This document shows, piece after piece, positions 45,588-52,187 of a stretch of DNA of 64,000 nt. Below the pieces are notes generated by a model. That model ran no database searches. It saw only the letters and a list, made by a program, of their open reading frames with translations, and was not told the origin of the DNA. The position numbers and the translations under genes are program-made. Each line of letters opens with the position of its first letter. Position 1 is the stretch's first letter. The stretch is from an uncultured Prevotellaceae bacterium (GTDB lineage: Bacteria > Bacteroidota > Bacteroidia > Bacteroidales > Muribaculaceae). The stretch spans positions 1 through 64,000 of the forward strand of contig CAMJJG010000007.1 in the NCBI GenBank assembly GCA_946406035.1, written 5' to 3'.

Positions 45588-48500
45588 ATGAAAAAACAAT
45601 TAGCACTGTTGGCCGCGCTGGCAATTGCTGGTGGAGTGCCCGTAGGGATGACCACGAGTCAGCCCACGACGGGTTTCACCGCTATGGCGCAGTCCAACCG
45701 AGTTACGGGCGTCATACGTGACGCACAAGGTGAGCCCCTCATCGGTGCGACCGTTAAGGTCAAGGGTACCAACCGTGGTACCGCCACCGATGTCGATGGC
45801 AAGTATTCAATCGTCGCCAACCGTGGTGACGTGCTCGTTGTGTCCTACATCGGCAGTAAGCCCATGGAAGTTACCGTGGGCAGCGGCACGATGGACATCG
45901 ACATGCAGGCCAATGACCAGGTCCTGGACGAGGTGGTTGTTACCGCCCTCGGTATCCGCAAGGACAAGAAGTCGCTGGGTTATGCCGTCGATGACCTTAA
46001 GGCCGAGGAACTGATGCGCAACAAGAGCGCCAACGCGATCAACTCCCTGTCGGGTAAGATCGCCGGTGTGAACATCACCCAGTCGTCGGGTGCCGCCGGT
46101 TCGGGCGCCCAGATCATCCTGCGTGGTGGTACGTCGGTTGCCGAGAACCGCGACAGCCAGCCGCTGTTTGTTGTGGATGGTGTCATCTATGACAACTCGG
46201 CAGGTATCGTGGGTAACTCCGCATTTGACGGTATGATGAACAGCGCCACCACTTCTTCCAATCGCGTGATGGATATCAACCCCGAGGATATCGAGAGCAT
46301 GTCCATCCTGAAGGGCCCGGCCGCATCGGCACTGTACGGTAGCCGTGCTGCCAACGGTGTTGTCATGATCACCACCAAGAAGGGTAAAGAGGGTCACACC
46401 GAGATCAGTTTCTCGGGTAAGATGATCGCCTCGATGGTCAAGGACCTGCCCAAGACCCAGAACCAGTATGTGCGTGGTTACATGACTGACATGTACAACG
46501 ACGCTGGCCAGTGGACCGGTCTCGAGATCAAGGACGACAGCTACAACTCATGGGGTCCCAAGCAGAATGTCCCCTTCTATGACAACTTGAAGAACTTCTT
46601 CGAGACGGGCATCATCTGGGACACCAACCTGAGCGTGAGCGGCGGTACCAAGAACAACAACTTCTTCCTGAGCGGTTCATTCTACGATCAGGACGGTATC
46701 GTTCCCACCACGGGCTACACCAAGACGACCTTCCGCTTCAACGGTGAGCAGAAGGTGGGCCGCTTCACCTTCGGCGCCAACGCTGCCTACAGCGATGCCC
46801 GCACGGTGAAGACGCTGACCGGTGCCGCCCTGTACGGCTCCAGCGGTACTGGTGCCCTCTATGCTGCCTACAACTGGGCTCCCAGCGATGACATGCGCCA
46901 CTACCTCAACGAGGACGGCACGCGCTATCGCATGTTCGGCGACCAGCTCCAGCCCTGGGACGAGCGTGACAACCCCTACTGGATTGTCAACAAGAACAAG
47001 ATGACCGATGACACCGAGCGTTTCACCGGCAACTTCAACGTGAAGTGGGATCTGTTTGACTGGTGGTGGCTGAGTTACCGCATGGGCGTTGACTCCTATA
47101 CCACCCAGAGCCACAACGAGATCGCTCCTGGTGGCGCCATCAAGCAGATCTGGCAGCGTGGTATGCTGAGCGACAACATGTACAAGTATCGCTACCTGAG
47201 CAACAACTTGATGTCGAACTGGAACAAGCAGTTCGGTGACTTCAACATCAACTTGATGTTGGGTGGATCGACCGACTACACCAAGACCCGTCGCGACTAT
47301 GAGTCGGCCTGGAACTTTGGAGTAGCCAACTTCTTCAGTTACGAGAATGCCAGCGATGCCGACAAGAAGTTCTCGCATGGCAGCAGCAAGAAGCGCATGG
47401 TTTCGGCCTTCGGTGAGTTCCGCATCGACTGGCGCAACGCCATCTTCCTGACCGTTACCGGCCGTAACGACTGGGATTCGACCCTGCCCAAGGACAACTG
47501 GAGTTACTTCTATCCCAGCGTGAGCGGCGCCATCGCCTTCACCGAACTCTTCCGCGAGAGCCTGCCCGACTGGTTCTCCTTCGGTAAGATCCGCGCCAGT
47601 TGGGCCGAGGTAGGTAAGGGTACCAACCCCTACGTTACCAACACCTATCTGTGGCCTGTGGGCACCTATCTGGAGGGTATGGTCGGCCTGGGTAACACCT
47701 GGACCCGCGGTAACCCCTACCTGAAGCCTGAGCGCACCCGCTCGACCGAGGTCGGCCTGGAGTTGCGTTTCATCCAGAACCGCTTGAAATTTGATATCGC
47801 TTACTATACCAACAACTCGTTTGACCTGATTCTGCAACCCCGTGGCCCGCAGTCGACCGGTTACATCTTCTGCTCGGTTAACTCTGGTGACGTTTACAAC
47901 AAGGGTCTCGAGATCAGCCTGAGCGGTACCCCCATCCAGCATGAGAACTTCATCTGGGAAACCGGTATCAACGTCTATGGCAACCGTGGCACCGTGGGTG
48001 ACCTGGTTAACGGTATCGACGTTATGTACCTGACCGACGTGCAGTATGGCGGCGCCAAGGCTGCAAGTTACAACCATGGCAACTTCATGGGTATCGACGG
48101 TACCAAGTGGAACCGCACCAGCGAGGGTAAACTTATCCTTGACAAGAACGGCTTCCCCACCACCGACAGCAAGGCCTATGAGGTCGGCGACCGTGAGGCC
48201 AAGTGGCAGGGCGGTTGGAACAACACGTTCACCTTCTTCAAGAACTGGACCTTCAACATGTTGTGGGAGTTCCGTTATGGTGGCGACGTGTTCAACGGCA
48301 CCAAGTATGCCATGTCGATGAGCGGTGTGAGCCAACTCAGCGCCGACTGGCGCAACGAGACCCTCACCATCGAGGGTGTGCGTGACACCGGCACCAAGGA
48401 CGCCAACGGCGATCCCGTCTATGAGCCTGTTAGCAACACCTGGAAGGCCGATCAGAACTACATGTTCAACGGCAACGAGACCAGTGGTTACAACATCATC

Positions 48501-49358
48501 AAGAACTACTACACGGGCGCTTACAACTACGAGACCCGCAACTGGATCACCAACGTCAAGAGCCTGCGCCTGCGCACGATCTCGCTGACCTATGATGTTC
48601 CCCGCAGCCTGCTTGCCAAGACCAAGTATATCAAGCGTGCCGCTATCACCGCATCGGCTAACAACCTGCTGCTGTTCACCAACTATGATGGTGATCCCGA
48701 GGTTGCCGCTTCGGGTGCCGGTATCGGTGGTTCGTCCTCGGTCGGCTTTGACTACTGTGGCGTTCCCGCTACCCGCCAGTATGCACTGGGTATCAACCTG
48801 ACCTTCGGTACCGACGATGTCGCTCCTGCCCGCGTCAACAACGTCGAGCTCGAGAACCTGAATGGTCAGATCAACGACCTGCGCAACCAGCTTGCCAATG
48901 CACAGAACGCTAGCAACGCTCGCATTGCTCAGCTGCAGGGAGACCTCGACGCCGCTAACCGCGCCCTGGCCAACTGCCGCAACGACCTGAACGCTGCCAA
49001 GAATGCTGCCGCCAAGGTGGTTGACAACAGCAAGCAGTACATGAACGTGCTCGTTCACTTCCCCGTGAACAAGACCGCCGTTAGCACCGATCAGCGTCCC
49101 AACGTTGAGCGTGTTGCCGCTTACCTGAAGAGCCATCCCGAGGCTACCTGCACCATCAAGGGTTATGCTTCGCCCGAGGGCAACCAGGAGAATAACATCA
49201 AGCTCGCTAACGGCCGTGCCGCAAGCGTGAAGGACATGCTCGTCAAGAAGTATGGTATCGCCGCCAACCGCATCAACGCTGCTGGCCAGGGTATCAGCAA
49301 CATGTTTGACGAACTGAGCTGGAACCGCGTTTCCATCTGCGAGATAATCGTGAAATAA
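45588..49358 (+). CDS. SusC/RagA TonB-dependent transporter with C-terminal coiled coil and OmpA-like domain
   Basis: A 1256-residue protein from the ATG at 45588 (an in-frame GTG six bases earlier is less likely). Signal peptide; carboxypeptidase-D-like domain (about 37-110, TGVIRDAQGEPLIGATVKVK); TonB-dependent plug (DEVVVTALGIRKDKKSLGYA, LRGGTSVAENRDSQPLFVVD, SILKGPAASALYGSRAANGV); and a barrel to about 1075. Then, beyond the normal end, a coiled coil (about 1083-1150, LNGQINDLRNQLANAQ) and an OmpA-like domain (about 1152-1256, GYASPEGNQ, NGRAASVKDMLVKKYGI, AAGQG). OmpA domains bind peptidoglycan, so the transporter may be tethered to the wall. Codons are strongly biased to GGT, CGT, AAC and AAG, suggesting very high expression. 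SusD follows by 47 bases. Confidence 0.93.
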   Translation: MKKQLALLAALAIAGGVPVGMTTSQPTTGFTAMAQSNRVTGVIRDAQGEPLIGATVKVKGTNRGTATDVDGKYSIVANRGDVLVVSYIGSKPMEVTVGSGTMDIDMQANDQVLDEVVVTALGIRKDKKSLGYAVDDLKAEELMRNKSANAINSLSGKIAGVNITQSSGAAGSGAQIILRGGTSVAENRDSQPLFVVDGVIYDNSAGIVGNSAFDGMMNSATTSSNRVMDINPEDIESMSILKGPAASALYGSRAANGVVMITTKKGKEGHTEISFSGKMIASMVKDLPKTQNQYVRGYMTDMYNDAGQWTGLEIKDDSYNSWGPKQNVPFYDNLKNFFETGIIWDTNLSVSGGTKNNNFFLSGSFYDQDGIVPTTGYTKTTFRFNGEQKVGRFTFGANAAYSDARTVKTLTGAALYGSSGTGALYAAYNWAPSDDMRHYLNEDGTRYRMFGDQLQPWDERDNPYWIVNKNKMTDDTERFTGNFNVKWDLFDWWWLSYRMGVDSYTTQSHNEIAPGGAIKQIWQRGMLSDNMYKYRYLSNNLMSNWNKQFGDFNINLMLGGSTDYTKTRRDYESAWNFGVANFFSYENASDADKKFSHGSSKKRMVSAFGEFRIDWRNAIFLTVTGRNDWDSTLPKDNWSYFYPSVSGAIAFTELFRESLPDWFSFGKIRASWAEVGKGTNPYVTNTYLWPVGTYLEGMVGLGNTWTRGNPYLKPERTRSTEVGLELRFIQNRLKFDIAYYTNNSFDLILQPRGPQSTGYIFCSVNSGDVYNKGLEISLSGTPIQHENFIWETGINVYGNRGTVGDLVNGIDVMYLTDVQYGGAKAASYNHGNFMGIDGTKWNRTSEGKLILDKNGFPTTDSKAYEVGDREAKWQGGWNNTFTFFKNWTFNMLWEFRYGGDVFNGTKYAMSMSGVSQLSADWRNETLTIEGVRDTGTKDANGDPVYEPVSNTWKADQNYMFNGNETSGYNIIKNYYTGAYNYETRNWITNVKSLRLRTISLTYDVPRSLLAKTKYIKRAAITASANNLLLFTNYDGDPEVAASGAGIGGSSSVGFDYCGVPATRQYALGINLTFGTDDVAPARVNNVELENLNGQINDLRNQLANAQNASNARIAQLQGDLDAANRALANCRNDLNAAKNAAAKVVDNSKQYMNVLVHFPVNKTAVSTDQRPNVERVAAYLKSHPEATCTIKGYASPEGNQENNIKLANGRAASVKDMLVKKYGIAANRINAAGQGISNMFDELSWNRVSICEIIVK

Positions 49359-49405: not shown

Positions 49406-51289
49406 ATGAAATCATTGAAATCAATTATACTGTGCGGCTTGGGTGTTGCGATGCTGTCGCTCACCTCTTGCAACGACTGGCTCGACGTGAACGTTGACCC
49501 CGATAGCCCTTCGGCCGAGTCCACGACCTATGACCAGCGTCTGGCCCACATTCAGTTCTATACCAACAGTGGCCTGCAGTTTGGTGCATGGCGCACCACG
49601 ATGGCCATGGGTGACTGGACCCGCAGCGCCAGCAACGGCGGTACCTATATGCAGGCATCCTACTGGCATCCTGTTGATGGCCAGGTAACTACCGTTTATC
49701 AGTGGTGGTTCGTCGGCGCTTATGCCAACGTGCCCGACATGATCGCCAAGGCCGAGGCTGTCGAGAACTGGCAGTTTGCCGGTGCCGGCTATCTGATCAA
49801 GGCCTATGGCTTTATGGCCATGACCGACCTCTATGGCGAGATGCCTTATACCCAGGCTGCCGCCGAGCCCGCTACTCCCGAGTATGACACGGGCAAGACC
49901 ATCTATCTGGGTTGCTTGGAGACCATCGACAAGGCCATTGAGTGCCTCGAGAAGGGTCAGAGTCAGGATCCCAGCCTGCCCACGCTGGCAGCCGGTGACT
50001 GGTGGAACAAAGGTGACCTGAACAAGTGGATCAAACTGGCCTACATGTTGAAGGCCCGCTGGATCAACAAGTTGAACAAGAAGGGTGCCGGTAGTTACAA
50101 GGACGGCAAGTATGACGCCGACGAAATCCTGCGCTGCCTTGACAAGGCCATGCAGAGCAATGCCGACAACACCATCGTCAACCATACCGACGACAACGGT
50201 GCAACCCACGATAACCTCGGTTGGGATGAGCCCGTTGACTACTCGCCCCTGTTCTCGGTTAGCGGTATGAACTCCGGTTACATGGCCACCAAGATGCTCT
50301 ACGACAACCTGACCAACTTTGCTGGTAAGGGCGTTGAGGATCCCCGTGCTGACCACATCCTGCCGTGGGCTTACAGCCCCAACAGGAGTGAGAATGGTAT
50401 AGATGCTGCTGGCGTGAAGTGGAATGGTCACTGGCGCCGCACGCTCGGCGTTGACATGTCCAGTGAGATCAACAGCCAGGGTGGCCCCCTGCGCGCTATG
50501 TTCAACACCGAGACCAACAGTTGGTACATTAACAGTGCCAATGAGGCTCGTCTGGGTGATACCGTCTATATCGAGGGTACCAGCGACTGTAAGGGTTACT
50601 TTGCTAATCCCAGCATCCTGTACTGCCGCGCCGGTAGCGGTAAGTTTGAGTCGGCTGAGTCGGGTACGTTCTACACCCGCGTAAGTTCGCCCACCTACAT
50701 CGGTACCTATGCCGAGTGCTGCTTCATCCGCGCCGAGGTGCTCTTCAAGAAGGGCGACAAGGCTGGTGCTTATGATGCCTACAAGAAGGGTGTCAAGGCT
50801 AGTTGCGAGTTGATGAACGAGAAACTGAGGGCATGGATTGCCGAGGATGCTAGTCTCGCCGACTGCCCGTCGTTCACCCCGATGACTGCCGAGGCTATCG
50901 ACAACTATGTGAATAACGGCATCGGCACTCAGGGTGAGTTGACCCTGGGTCACATCATGACTCAGAAGCGTATCGCCCTCATGTTCTCCTATGAGATCTG
51001 GAACGATATGCGCCGCTATGACTTCGATCCCAACATCTTCTTCGGTTGGTCGATTCCCGCTTACCACTACAAGGTGGCTGCCGCTATGCTGGCCATCCCC
51101 GAGGGCAAGCAGTATCGCCGCTGGCGCCAGTGCTCGCACGAGTACAACTACAACAGCAAGAACCTGCAGGCCATCGGTGCACAGGTTCCCGGCGCCCGCA
51201 TGACCGACGGCGAGGGCAAGGAAGTGATGTGGAACCGTCAGGACGACGCCTGGACCATCCCCGTATGGTGGGACAGCGACCAGGAGTAA
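49406..51289 (+). CDS. SusD/RagB-family surface lipoprotein (SusD-like)
   Basis: A 627-residue lipoprotein (leader ending LSLTSCNDW, Cys about 22). The TPR-rich SusD fold is seen in YQWWFVGAYANVPDMIAKAE, YLIKAYGFMAMTDLYGEMPY, LNKWIKLAYMLKARWINK and LTLGHIMTQKRIALMFSYEI. The MTDLYGEMPYTQA and QKRIALMF patterns resemble the SusD-like_2 subgroup. It would cap the SusC barrel and capture substrate at the cell surface. The codon bias matches susC, so the pair is probably abundant. No glycoside hydrolase adjoins the pair, so the substrate (glycan or peptide) is open. A terminator follows. Confidence 0.92.
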   Translation: MKSLKSIILCGLGVAMLSLTSCNDWLDVNVDPDSPSAESTTYDQRLAHIQFYTNSGLQFGAWRTTMAMGDWTRSASNGGTYMQASYWHPVDGQVTTVYQWWFVGAYANVPDMIAKAEAVENWQFAGAGYLIKAYGFMAMTDLYGEMPYTQAAAEPATPEYDTGKTIYLGCLETIDKAIECLEKGQSQDPSLPTLAAGDWWNKGDLNKWIKLAYMLKARWINKLNKKGAGSYKDGKYDADEILRCLDKAMQSNADNTIVNHTDDNGATHDNLGWDEPVDYSPLFSVSGMNSGYMATKMLYDNLTNFAGKGVEDPRADHILPWAYSPNRSENGIDAAGVKWNGHWRRTLGVDMSSEINSQGGPLRAMFNTETNSWYINSANEARLGDTVYIEGTSDCKGYFANPSILYCRAGSGKFESAESGTFYTRVSSPTYIGTYAECCFIRAEVLFKKGDKAGAYDAYKKGVKASCELMNEKLRAWIAEDASLADCPSFTPMTAEAIDNYVNNGIGTQGELTLGHIMTQKRIALMFSYEIWNDMRRYDFDPNIFFGWSIPAYHYKVAAAMLAIPEGKQYRRWRQCSHEYNYNSKNLQAIGAQVPGARMTDGEGKEVMWNRQDDAWTIPVWWDSDQE

Positions 51290-51320: not shown

Positions 51321-51355
51321 CCGCCGAGGCAATATGAGCCCCGGCGGCGTTTTTT
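51321..51355 (+). terminator. Terminator of susCD
   Basis: CCGCCGAGGC at 51321-51330 pairs with GCCCCGGCGG at 51338-51347 (one mismatch), followed by CGTTTTTT. Its T-run overlaps the -33 box of the next promoter. Confidence 0.85.
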
Positions 51356-51381
51356 GATTCCGATAAGTTTCAGTATCTTTG
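51353..51381 (+). promoter_or_regulatory. Promoter of pgeF
   Basis: -33 TTTG (51353-51356), 17-base spacer, -7 TATCTTTG (51374-51381). It supports the ATG at 51399 over an in-frame candidate at 51354. Confidence 0.65.
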
Positions 51382-51398
51382 CCCCAAAAAGTAAAGGT

Positions 51399-52187
51399 AT
51401 GATGCTAGAGAGATTGGATTTTGTGAAGCCGTTGGCTGGCGTTGAGGCATTCTCGACCCTGCGCGGCGAGGTGGATGGTCGCAATGCCTATTCGGCGCTA
51501 AACTTGTGTGACTATGTGGGTGATGATGCCTTGCGGGTGCTGGACGCGCGCATCATGCTGGCAATGCAGCTGGGTATCGACCTGGATGACCTGGTGATGC
51601 CTCGGCAAACCCACTCTTGCCGTGTGGCCGTCATCGACGAGGGCTTCCGCTCGATGGACATTGACAAGCAAGAAGCGGCCCTCGAGGGCGTCGATGCGCT
51701 GGTCACGCAGTTGAGTGGCGTGGTCATCGGGGTAAATACGGCCGACTGTGTGCCCATCGTGCTGGCCGACGAGGCGTCGGGCATCATTGCGGTGGCTCAT
51801 GCTGGCTGGCGGGGAACCGTGGGCCGCATCGCCGGAGCCGTAGTCGAGGAAATGTGCCGCCAGGGCGCTAGAGCCGACCGCATCATGGCTGCAATGGGTC
51901 CCAGCATCTGCCAGGACTGTTTTGAGGTGGGTGATGAGGTGGTGGCGGCCTTTGAGACGTCCCGATTTGACCTGGAAACCATCGTCAGCCGCAATGATGT
52001 TACGGGCAAAGCCCACATCGACCTGCGTGCCGCCAATCGTGCCGTGCTTGCCTCGGCCGGACTGCTGGCCGATAATATTGCCGTGTCGCGGCATTGCTCA
52101 CGATGTGAGCACGACCGCTTCTTCTCGGCTCGCCGCTTGGGCACCAAGAGCGGCCGGACCTTCACGGGAATTTACAGGACGCTATAA
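51399..52187 (+). CDS. pgeF: Peptidoglycan editing factor PgeF (YfiH/laccase-domain family)
   Basis: A 262-residue protein starting MMLERLDFVKPLAG. The catalytic metal ligands of the family are visible: His in PRQTHSCRV, Cys in VNTADCVPIV and His in AVAHAGWRGT. PgeF corrects misincorporated residues in peptidoglycan precursors; older annotation as polyphenol oxidase or laccase reflects weak side activities, and purine nucleoside activity has also been reported. It is monocistronic between the susCD terminator and a bidirectional hairpin. Confidence 0.93.
   Translation: MMLERLDFVKPLAGVEAFSTLRGEVDGRNAYSALNLCDYVGDDALRVLDARIMLAMQLGIDLDDLVMPRQTHSCRVAVIDEGFRSMDIDKQEAALEGVDALVTQLSGVVIGVNTADCVPIVLADEASGIIAVAHAGWRGTVGRIAGAVVEEMCRQGARADRIMAAMGPSICQDCFEVGDEVVAAFETSRFDLETIVSRNDVTGKAHIDLRAANRAVLASAGLLADNIAVSRHCSRCEHDRFFSARRLGTKSGRTFTGIYRTL

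Follow-up and report, generated by a model that had tools for sequence, protein, structure and literature searches.

The outer membrane of E. coli is tethered to the cell wall by Lpp and Pal, neither of which is a transporter. In Bacteroidetes, a tether role between the outer membrane and the wall has been proposed for PorE of P. gingivalis (PMC12204202, PMC7192894). In Rhodospirillum rubrum, the porins Por39/41 are described as linked to peptidoglycan by the OmpA-like domain of PapS (PMC11369160). The gene reported here appears to bring such an anchor and a nutrient importer together in one protein. It lies in a 64,000-nucleotide stretch of DNA referred to as the window (positions 1 to 64,000 of contig CAMJJG010000007.1, assembly GCA_946406035.1, from an uncultured Prevotellaceae bacterium that GTDB places in Muribaculaceae), and it encodes a SusC-type transporter that continues into a helix and an OmpA-like domain. 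The best explanation, with a probability of roughly 0.74, is that a SusC importer was given the periplasmic half of its lineage's OmpA and that this tail is a wall tether.

Architecture of the fusion protein

The gene is a single open reading frame (ORF) that runs from an ATG at 45588 to a stop at 49358 on the + strand and encodes 1256 amino acids (aa) without an internal stop or frameshift. The TIGR04056 SusC/RagA profile matches residues 38-1073 over profile positions 2-981 of 981 (648 bits against a cut-off of 368), and the SusC signature TIGR04057 lies at residues 234-264. Pfam places CarbopepD_reg_2 at 39-118, Plug at 127-258, the TonB barrel at 441-888, and OmpA at 1158-1238 (PF00691, 47.8 bits against a cut-off of 27.2). 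The protein lacks the usual SusC ending at the last barrel strand, an ending that TIGR04056 does not demand. Instead, 183 residues extend past Phe1073, the last barrel residue. A reading of this DNA made from its letters alone (the sequence-only reading) had proposed a fusion of a SusC transporter with a coiled-coil helix and an OmpA domain. The full-length TIGR04056 match, the PF00691 match, and a model of the tail bear this out, and the long extension is somewhat longer than the ~175 residues it had estimated. The protein does not contain an OmpA-type barrel; its barrel is that of SusC, and only the C-terminal module is common to OmpA proper. The features of the gene and its partner are as follows.

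45588..49358, + strand: SusC-OmpA fusion gene, 1256 aa (ORF and profiles)
45588..45695, + strand: probable signal peptide, residues 1-36 (judged by eye from the sequence)
45702..45941, + strand: CarbopepD_reg_2 N-terminal extension, residues 39-118 (Pfam)
45927..45947, + strand: probable Ton box DEVVVTA, residues 114-120 (sequence; likeness to Bt1763, whose Ton box is DEVVVTG, PMC7782687)
45966..46361, + strand: Plug domain, residues 127-258, with TIGR04057 at 234-264 (Pfam, TIGR)
46362..48806, + strand: SusC beta-barrel to Phe1073; tail-less orthologues stop after the same codon (TIGR04056, orthologue comparison)
48807..49355, + strand: appended module, residues 1074-1256, 183 aa (orthologue comparison)
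48840..49004, + strand: 55-residue helix, probable coiled coil, residues 1085-1139 (structure model, heptad count)
49059..49301, + strand: OmpA domain PF00691, residues 1158-1238; the modelled fold reaches about residue 1255 (Pfam, model)
49170..49217, + strand: peptidoglycan-site positions Ser1195 (for Asp), Glu1197, Asn1203, and Arg1210 (alignment; PMC7192894, PMC12108004)
49406..51289, + strand: SusD-type lipoprotein partner, PF12771/PF12741 (Pfam)

Recurrence of the fusion

The window's genome, a fragmented assembly that is 74.68% complete, has seven PF00691 matches, and three of them lie in SusC frames of 1258, 1260, and 1301 aa. Seven SusC matches in this genome reach the end of the profile (position at least 979). 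Three of these are tailed, and no PF00691 match lies on the contigs of the other four. The genome's ordinary OmpA (L002, 423 aa) ends in the same helix and OmpA domain.

The fusion was also found across the genus. A search of 101 genomes with the tail as query listed matches down to E ~1.9e-46. Among the matches listed, fused copies occur in 38 of the 101 genomes; another 57 show one match each, and the remaining 6 show none. The listed single matches of untailed genomes are frames of 414-432 aa. Full-length tailed frames of 1209-1363 aa occur in 37 genomes; in G043, the one fused frame among the matches listed is only 417 aa. A tail match with one internal TGA (G084:C68:14000-14482), the sole one among the matches listed, is possibly a decaying or mis-assembled copy. 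The 73 related loci come from Bacteroidales records, many of them ruminant-derived per record, and are labeled Prevotellaceae (35), Muribaculaceae (17), Porphyromonadaceae (4), or carry no family (17).

Is the fusion found outside the genus? Wider samples of the family (297 genomes, of which 40 belong to the genus), the order (393), and the phylum (395) were searched with the tail, with family matches listed to E ~4e-37 and at most 8-10 candidates scored per genome. No SusC-OmpA fusion outside the genus was seen among the matches listed in the three samples, in a search blind to fusions whose OmpA domain differs greatly. The sequence-only reading had suggested a search of Bacteroidales for this architecture; it recurs within the genus. 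In the order sample, the only listed frames above 1000 aa outside the window's genome are G274 (1299 aa) and G422 (2217 aa), which were rejected as fusions since they are a VWA+OmpA and a SprB+OmpA protein. The longest frame among the matches listed in the phylum sample is 929 aa. No SusC/TonB-dependent transporter with an OmpA domain appeared among the titles and abstract openings listed, a scope outside which preprints, most subscription journals, and domain databases lie. Domain databases could hold the architecture without a report of it. In sum, the fusion is real and lineage-specific; the transporter part belongs to SusC and the tail to OmpA.

Tailed and tail-less orthologues in four barrel groups

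By their barrels, the fused genes fall into four groups: W (the window gene), B and C (both on contig C2 of the window's genome), and a fourth group, D. Compared by one representative per group over aligned residues, the barrels are 26-31% identical and the tails 65-82% identical, where the B and D barrel pieces include the N-terminal part. The genus was then searched with the W, B, and C barrels, tail excluded, so that this comparison covers three groups, with D outside it. The counts exclude second copies and any row whose match fell short of either end of the barrel (14/63 for W, 7/36 for B, and 5/73 for C). Full-length frames were bimodal in all three groups. In W, 22 were tailed (1209-1311 aa), against 27 that were tail-less (1063-1106 aa). 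Group B had 18 tailed (1210-1260 aa) and 11 tail-less frames (1048-1058 aa), and group C had 28 tailed (1279-1363 aa) and 40 tail-less frames (1097-1167 aa). Two or more of these groups were present in 49 genomes, and in 48 of those the copies were all tailed or all tail-less.

The position of the join comes from a comparison of W orthologues. Tail-less orthologues, up to 79% identical, end at the terminal Phe of the barrel, whereas tailed ones read on into Gly. This junction was seen in the DNA of 6 tailed and 5 tail-less loci and in the ends of 30 loci; one further tailed locus was unmatched by the pattern. Orthologous SusD genes start downstream in both kinds of locus. The fusion recurs in one genus and in four divergent SusC groups, and its join lies exactly after the terminal Phe. 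The sequence-only reading was right that a standard SusC ends at the last strand, as the tail-less orthologues do, but the fusion is not singular, with three in the genome and four barrel groups.

In the window's genome, the W gene stands alone beside recF, and the B and C genes lie together on contig C2. Several tailed genomes have fused SusC genes from different groups clustered within ~14-32 kb of each other, with W and C divergent and D near W (for example, G033:C37, G061:C26, and G034:C28; L090, L091, L094, and L098-L100).

Origin, exchange, and selection of the tail

Where did the tail come from? A tree was made of 66 of 105 modules (random picks plus named rows, with L216 omitted as a long branch). 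In it, all 36 fused tails group as a single clade (support 99/96), which is sister to 16 OmpAs of tailed genomes together with that of genome G009 (100/98), and the OmpAs of tail-less genomes fall outside this grouping. A tree of all 105 rows gave the same picture (96 SH-aLRT). Therefore, the simplest account is a single origin of the module from the lineage's own OmpA; in other words, the lineage would have copied its own OmpA anchor onto several importers. The window tail is 63% identical to the module of its own genome's OmpA.

The barrels were placed in a tree of 30 of the 63 W rows, those with locus DNA. The 21 tailed W barrels do not form a clade: at least three changes are needed, and a single clade is rejected (approximately unbiased test, p-AU 2.9e-118). 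Hence, either barrels were exchanged across the border between tailed and tail-less genomes or tails were repeatedly gained and lost. Exchange of barrels is favored. Tails also moved: the W barrels L185 and L149 carry C-type tails in both module trees, indicating that tails were exchanged between SusC loci. W and D tails of the same genome are more alike (mean 0.871, 5 pairs) than those of different genomes (0.827, 237 pairs), and no such effect was seen in the other five of the six group-pair types. Within-genome homogenization is therefore hinted at for the W-D pair type only. The tail is under purifying selection like the barrel, with a median ratio of nonsynonymous to synonymous substitution rates (dN/dS) of 0.173 for the tail and 0.164 for the barrel (66 pairs from 12 chosen tailed W genes).

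Tail structure and the predicted peptidoglycan site

The sequence-only reading had proposed that the structure be predicted. A model of residues 1061-1256, based on an alignment of 39 tails, has a mean predicted local distance difference test score (pLDDT) of 79.6, with helix blocks near 95, and consists of a helix at 1085-1139 followed by an OmpA fold. Among PDB structures, the OmpA-like domain of A. baumannii matches best (3td3, E 6.8e-11), and the 107 matches at E<=0.001 include the stem-peptide complex 3td5. The description of the helix as heptad-rich is fair but imperfect, as positions a and d are hydrophobic in 10/16 and 10/15 cases in the two best registers.

In known domains, diaminopimelic acid (DAP) is held by Asp, Asn, and Arg side chains, as reported for Asp576, Asn584, and Arg591 of PorE (PMC7192894). 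Asp271 and Arg286 are at the DAP site of the A. baumannii OmpA domain (PMC12108004). In R. rubrum PapS, a change of the Arg abolishes binding of meso-DAP (mDAP) (PMC11369160), and this Arg corresponds to Arg1210 of the window tail. Ser1195, Asn1203 (+8), and Arg1210 (+15) have the spacing of the PorE residues and are invariant in 39/39 tails. Thus, the classical Asp is absent, as had been noticed from the sequence. The sequence-only reading further suggested that binding chemistry may differ; the missing Asp does not indicate a chemistry peculiar to the fusion. The motif GYAS-x-[ED]-G, with an acidic residue two after the Ser, is found in 73 of 74 tails (one row failed the pattern) and in 31/31 OmpAs of the genus in the set, including the window genome's own. 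Because the parent OmpA and these relatives share the Ser, the loss of the Asp is inherited from OmpA. The tail would bind peptidoglycan through the conserved Asn and Arg. The window's genome also encodes another OmpA-type protein, likewise 423 aa long but divergent (L007, G000:C43:10948-11313), which keeps the Asp in the sequence GWADNYTG.

Function of the tail

The N- and C-termini of SusC face the periplasm; therefore, the tail hangs below the barrel. How might it act there? The SusC/SusD pair would fold and import via TonB as usual. The 55-residue rod, ~8 nm if straight, would reach into the periplasm and possibly pair with a second copy in the SusC2D2 dimer. The OmpA domain would grip the DAP-containing stem peptide by Arg1210 and Asn1203, and this grip would pin both the importer and the outer membrane around it to the wall. 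A noncovalent tether between the outer membrane and peptidoglycan is thus the most likely function. The periplasmic wall anchor of the sequence-only reading keeps its placement by topology and its likely role, with peptidoglycan binding as a prediction from sequence. The interleaving of tailed and tail-less barrels, set against the single clade of the tails, suggests that the lineage retains the tail as a feature of its envelope, not tied to any one nutrient. It may even be, though this is tentative and somewhat doubtful, that several importers were made structural tethers, with the anchor on four SusC groups kept lineage-wide even when barrels were replaced from tail-less relatives, and with the importers held while TonB pulls.

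Other explanations fit parts of the data. The tail could mainly organize or regulate the transporter, with the helix pairing SusC copies or the domain under the plug tuning TonB coupling, and with wall binding minor. Such a role fits the long predicted helix, the lost Asp, and the location of the tail on transporters, but it is unlikely because the genome's ordinary OmpA, a protein without a plug, terminates in this module too, and because the Asn and Arg of the site do not vary among the 39 tails. Slightly less probable again is a harmless module without a selected role, which recombination carried from locus to locus and chance brought to fixation. The low dN/dS of the tail and the concordance across groups in 48/49 genomes argue against neutral spread, even if the C-type tails on W barrels and the likeness of W-D tails within genomes, absent from the other five pair types, are in keeping with it. 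Finally, that an artefact of assembly or sequencing joined a barrel gene to an OmpA gene by a missed stop or frameshift near 48840, as the sequence-only reading had considered, was rejected and has almost no probability despite the fragmented, incomplete genome, since the fusion recurs across the genus in four barrel groups, with a conserved join and purifying selection.

Several observations weigh against the wall-tether explanation. The tether role is predicted from sequence and fold. With Ser1195 in place of the Asp, the domain may bind weakly or not at all. A model of the longer segment 114-1256 reached a mean pLDDT of 34 and was set aside, which leaves the geometry of SusC and tail together conjectural. 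Repeated gain and loss of tails could explain the interleaved W barrels. Genome G009 (OmpA locus L012) groups with the tailed genomes by its OmpA, also in a tree of the OmpA N-terminal part, a rough marker (15 tailed genomes plus G009, 100/99), yet it shows no tail; the W, B, and C barrels were not matched in it at the strict cut-offs used. G002 is the sole mixed genome, and its W-like copy is tail-less and 54% identical. The B copy has ordinary codon bias (given below). Lastly, ordinary OmpA is present among the matches listed for 36/38 tailed genomes, so that in general no lacking tether is replaced.

The idea that one protein does both jobs therefore holds only as an addition. The number of PF00691 matches per genome (medians of 8 for tailed and 5 for untailed genomes) fits simple addition, not a trade-off with other tethers. 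OmpA-domain proteins of ~233 aa are among the matches listed for many tailed genomes, and in the window's own incomplete genome a 216-aa protein is the sole match of this kind. Ordinary OmpA was not matched in 2/38 tailed genomes (G045 and G073, which have fused SusC genes and may reflect an assembly gap or a real loss) or in 6/63 others among the matches listed, with no clear replacement.

If the wall-tether explanation is true, the molecules that import nutrients also attach the outer membrane to the wall. The fusions are also an example of a single module copied onto several loci and retained by a lineage as a trait. The genus provides matched natural pairs in several barrel groups: SusC proteins that bear an OmpA-type tail and counterparts, up to 79% identical, that lack it. 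Whether a wall-pinned importer works, and whether tethering alters mobility, vesicle sorting, or envelope stiffness, is therefore directly testable. The pairs also allow one to ask how a domain joins the end of a barrel without spoiling assembly. In this one group of ruminant-gut bacteria, related tail-less importers in sister species make a clean natural test.

SusD partner, neighbors, and codon bias

The SusD-type gene (49406-51289) starts 47 bases after the SusC stop, and a SusD relative adjoins the W-type SusC in 21/21 loci checked. A YfiH-type gene (PF02578; window 51354-52187, + strand) starts 64 bases after the SusD gene. YfiH-type proteins are linked to peptidoglycan editing. No relatives of the window's RecF, YfiH-type, or Zn-peptidase genes were found in the flanks of 21 W loci, several of which are cut by contig ends; the YfiH-type neighbor is therefore probably there by chance. 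None of the five neighbors scanned is an enzyme gene that names a substrate. The solved barrel nearest to W is BT_2264, whose complex has been seen with a peptide (PMC7782687), and the SusC homologue 8aa4 is nearest to B and C.

Codon bias was ranked by the effective number of codons (ENC) among 57 ORFs of at least 200 aa (window, contig C2 bases 1-38000, and OmpA locus) because ribosomal L14, sought as a reference, was not found in the incomplete genome. The W SusC has an ENC of 33.7 (rank 9/57) and the genome's own OmpA 30.3 (rank 1). The C copy ranks 11/57 and the B copy 29/57. High expression of W and C, but not of B, is plausible. The abundance that the sequence-only reading drew from codon bias is thus plausible for W. 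An antisense open frame of 819 aa (window 46677-49136, - strand) overlies the SusC gene and is most likely a by-product of strong codon bias.

Comparison with known systems

Compared with its nearest solved SusC/RagA relative, BT_2264 (5fq6, E 7.5e-117), the window protein has the same plug, barrel, adjacent SusD, and N-terminal extension. However, the match stops with the barrel, and the window protein adds 183 residues. The genome's own OmpA has the same helix and OmpA module, but its N-terminal part, presumably a small barrel as in its family, is no SusC barrel. The Lpp helix of E. coli is similar in length to the window rod. PorE is alike in its C-terminal OmpA-type domain, its proposed tether role, and the fold match of its structure 6top to the window tail. 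Unlike the window protein, PorE is described as a lipoprotein without a barrel, and it keeps Asp/Asn/Arg where the window tail has Ser/Asn/Arg. PapS with Por39/41 is alike in that porins are linked to peptidoglycan by an OmpA-like domain. As described, PapS is a lipoprotein of its own that forms a complex with the porins, whereas the anchor of the window protein is fused to the transporter itself.

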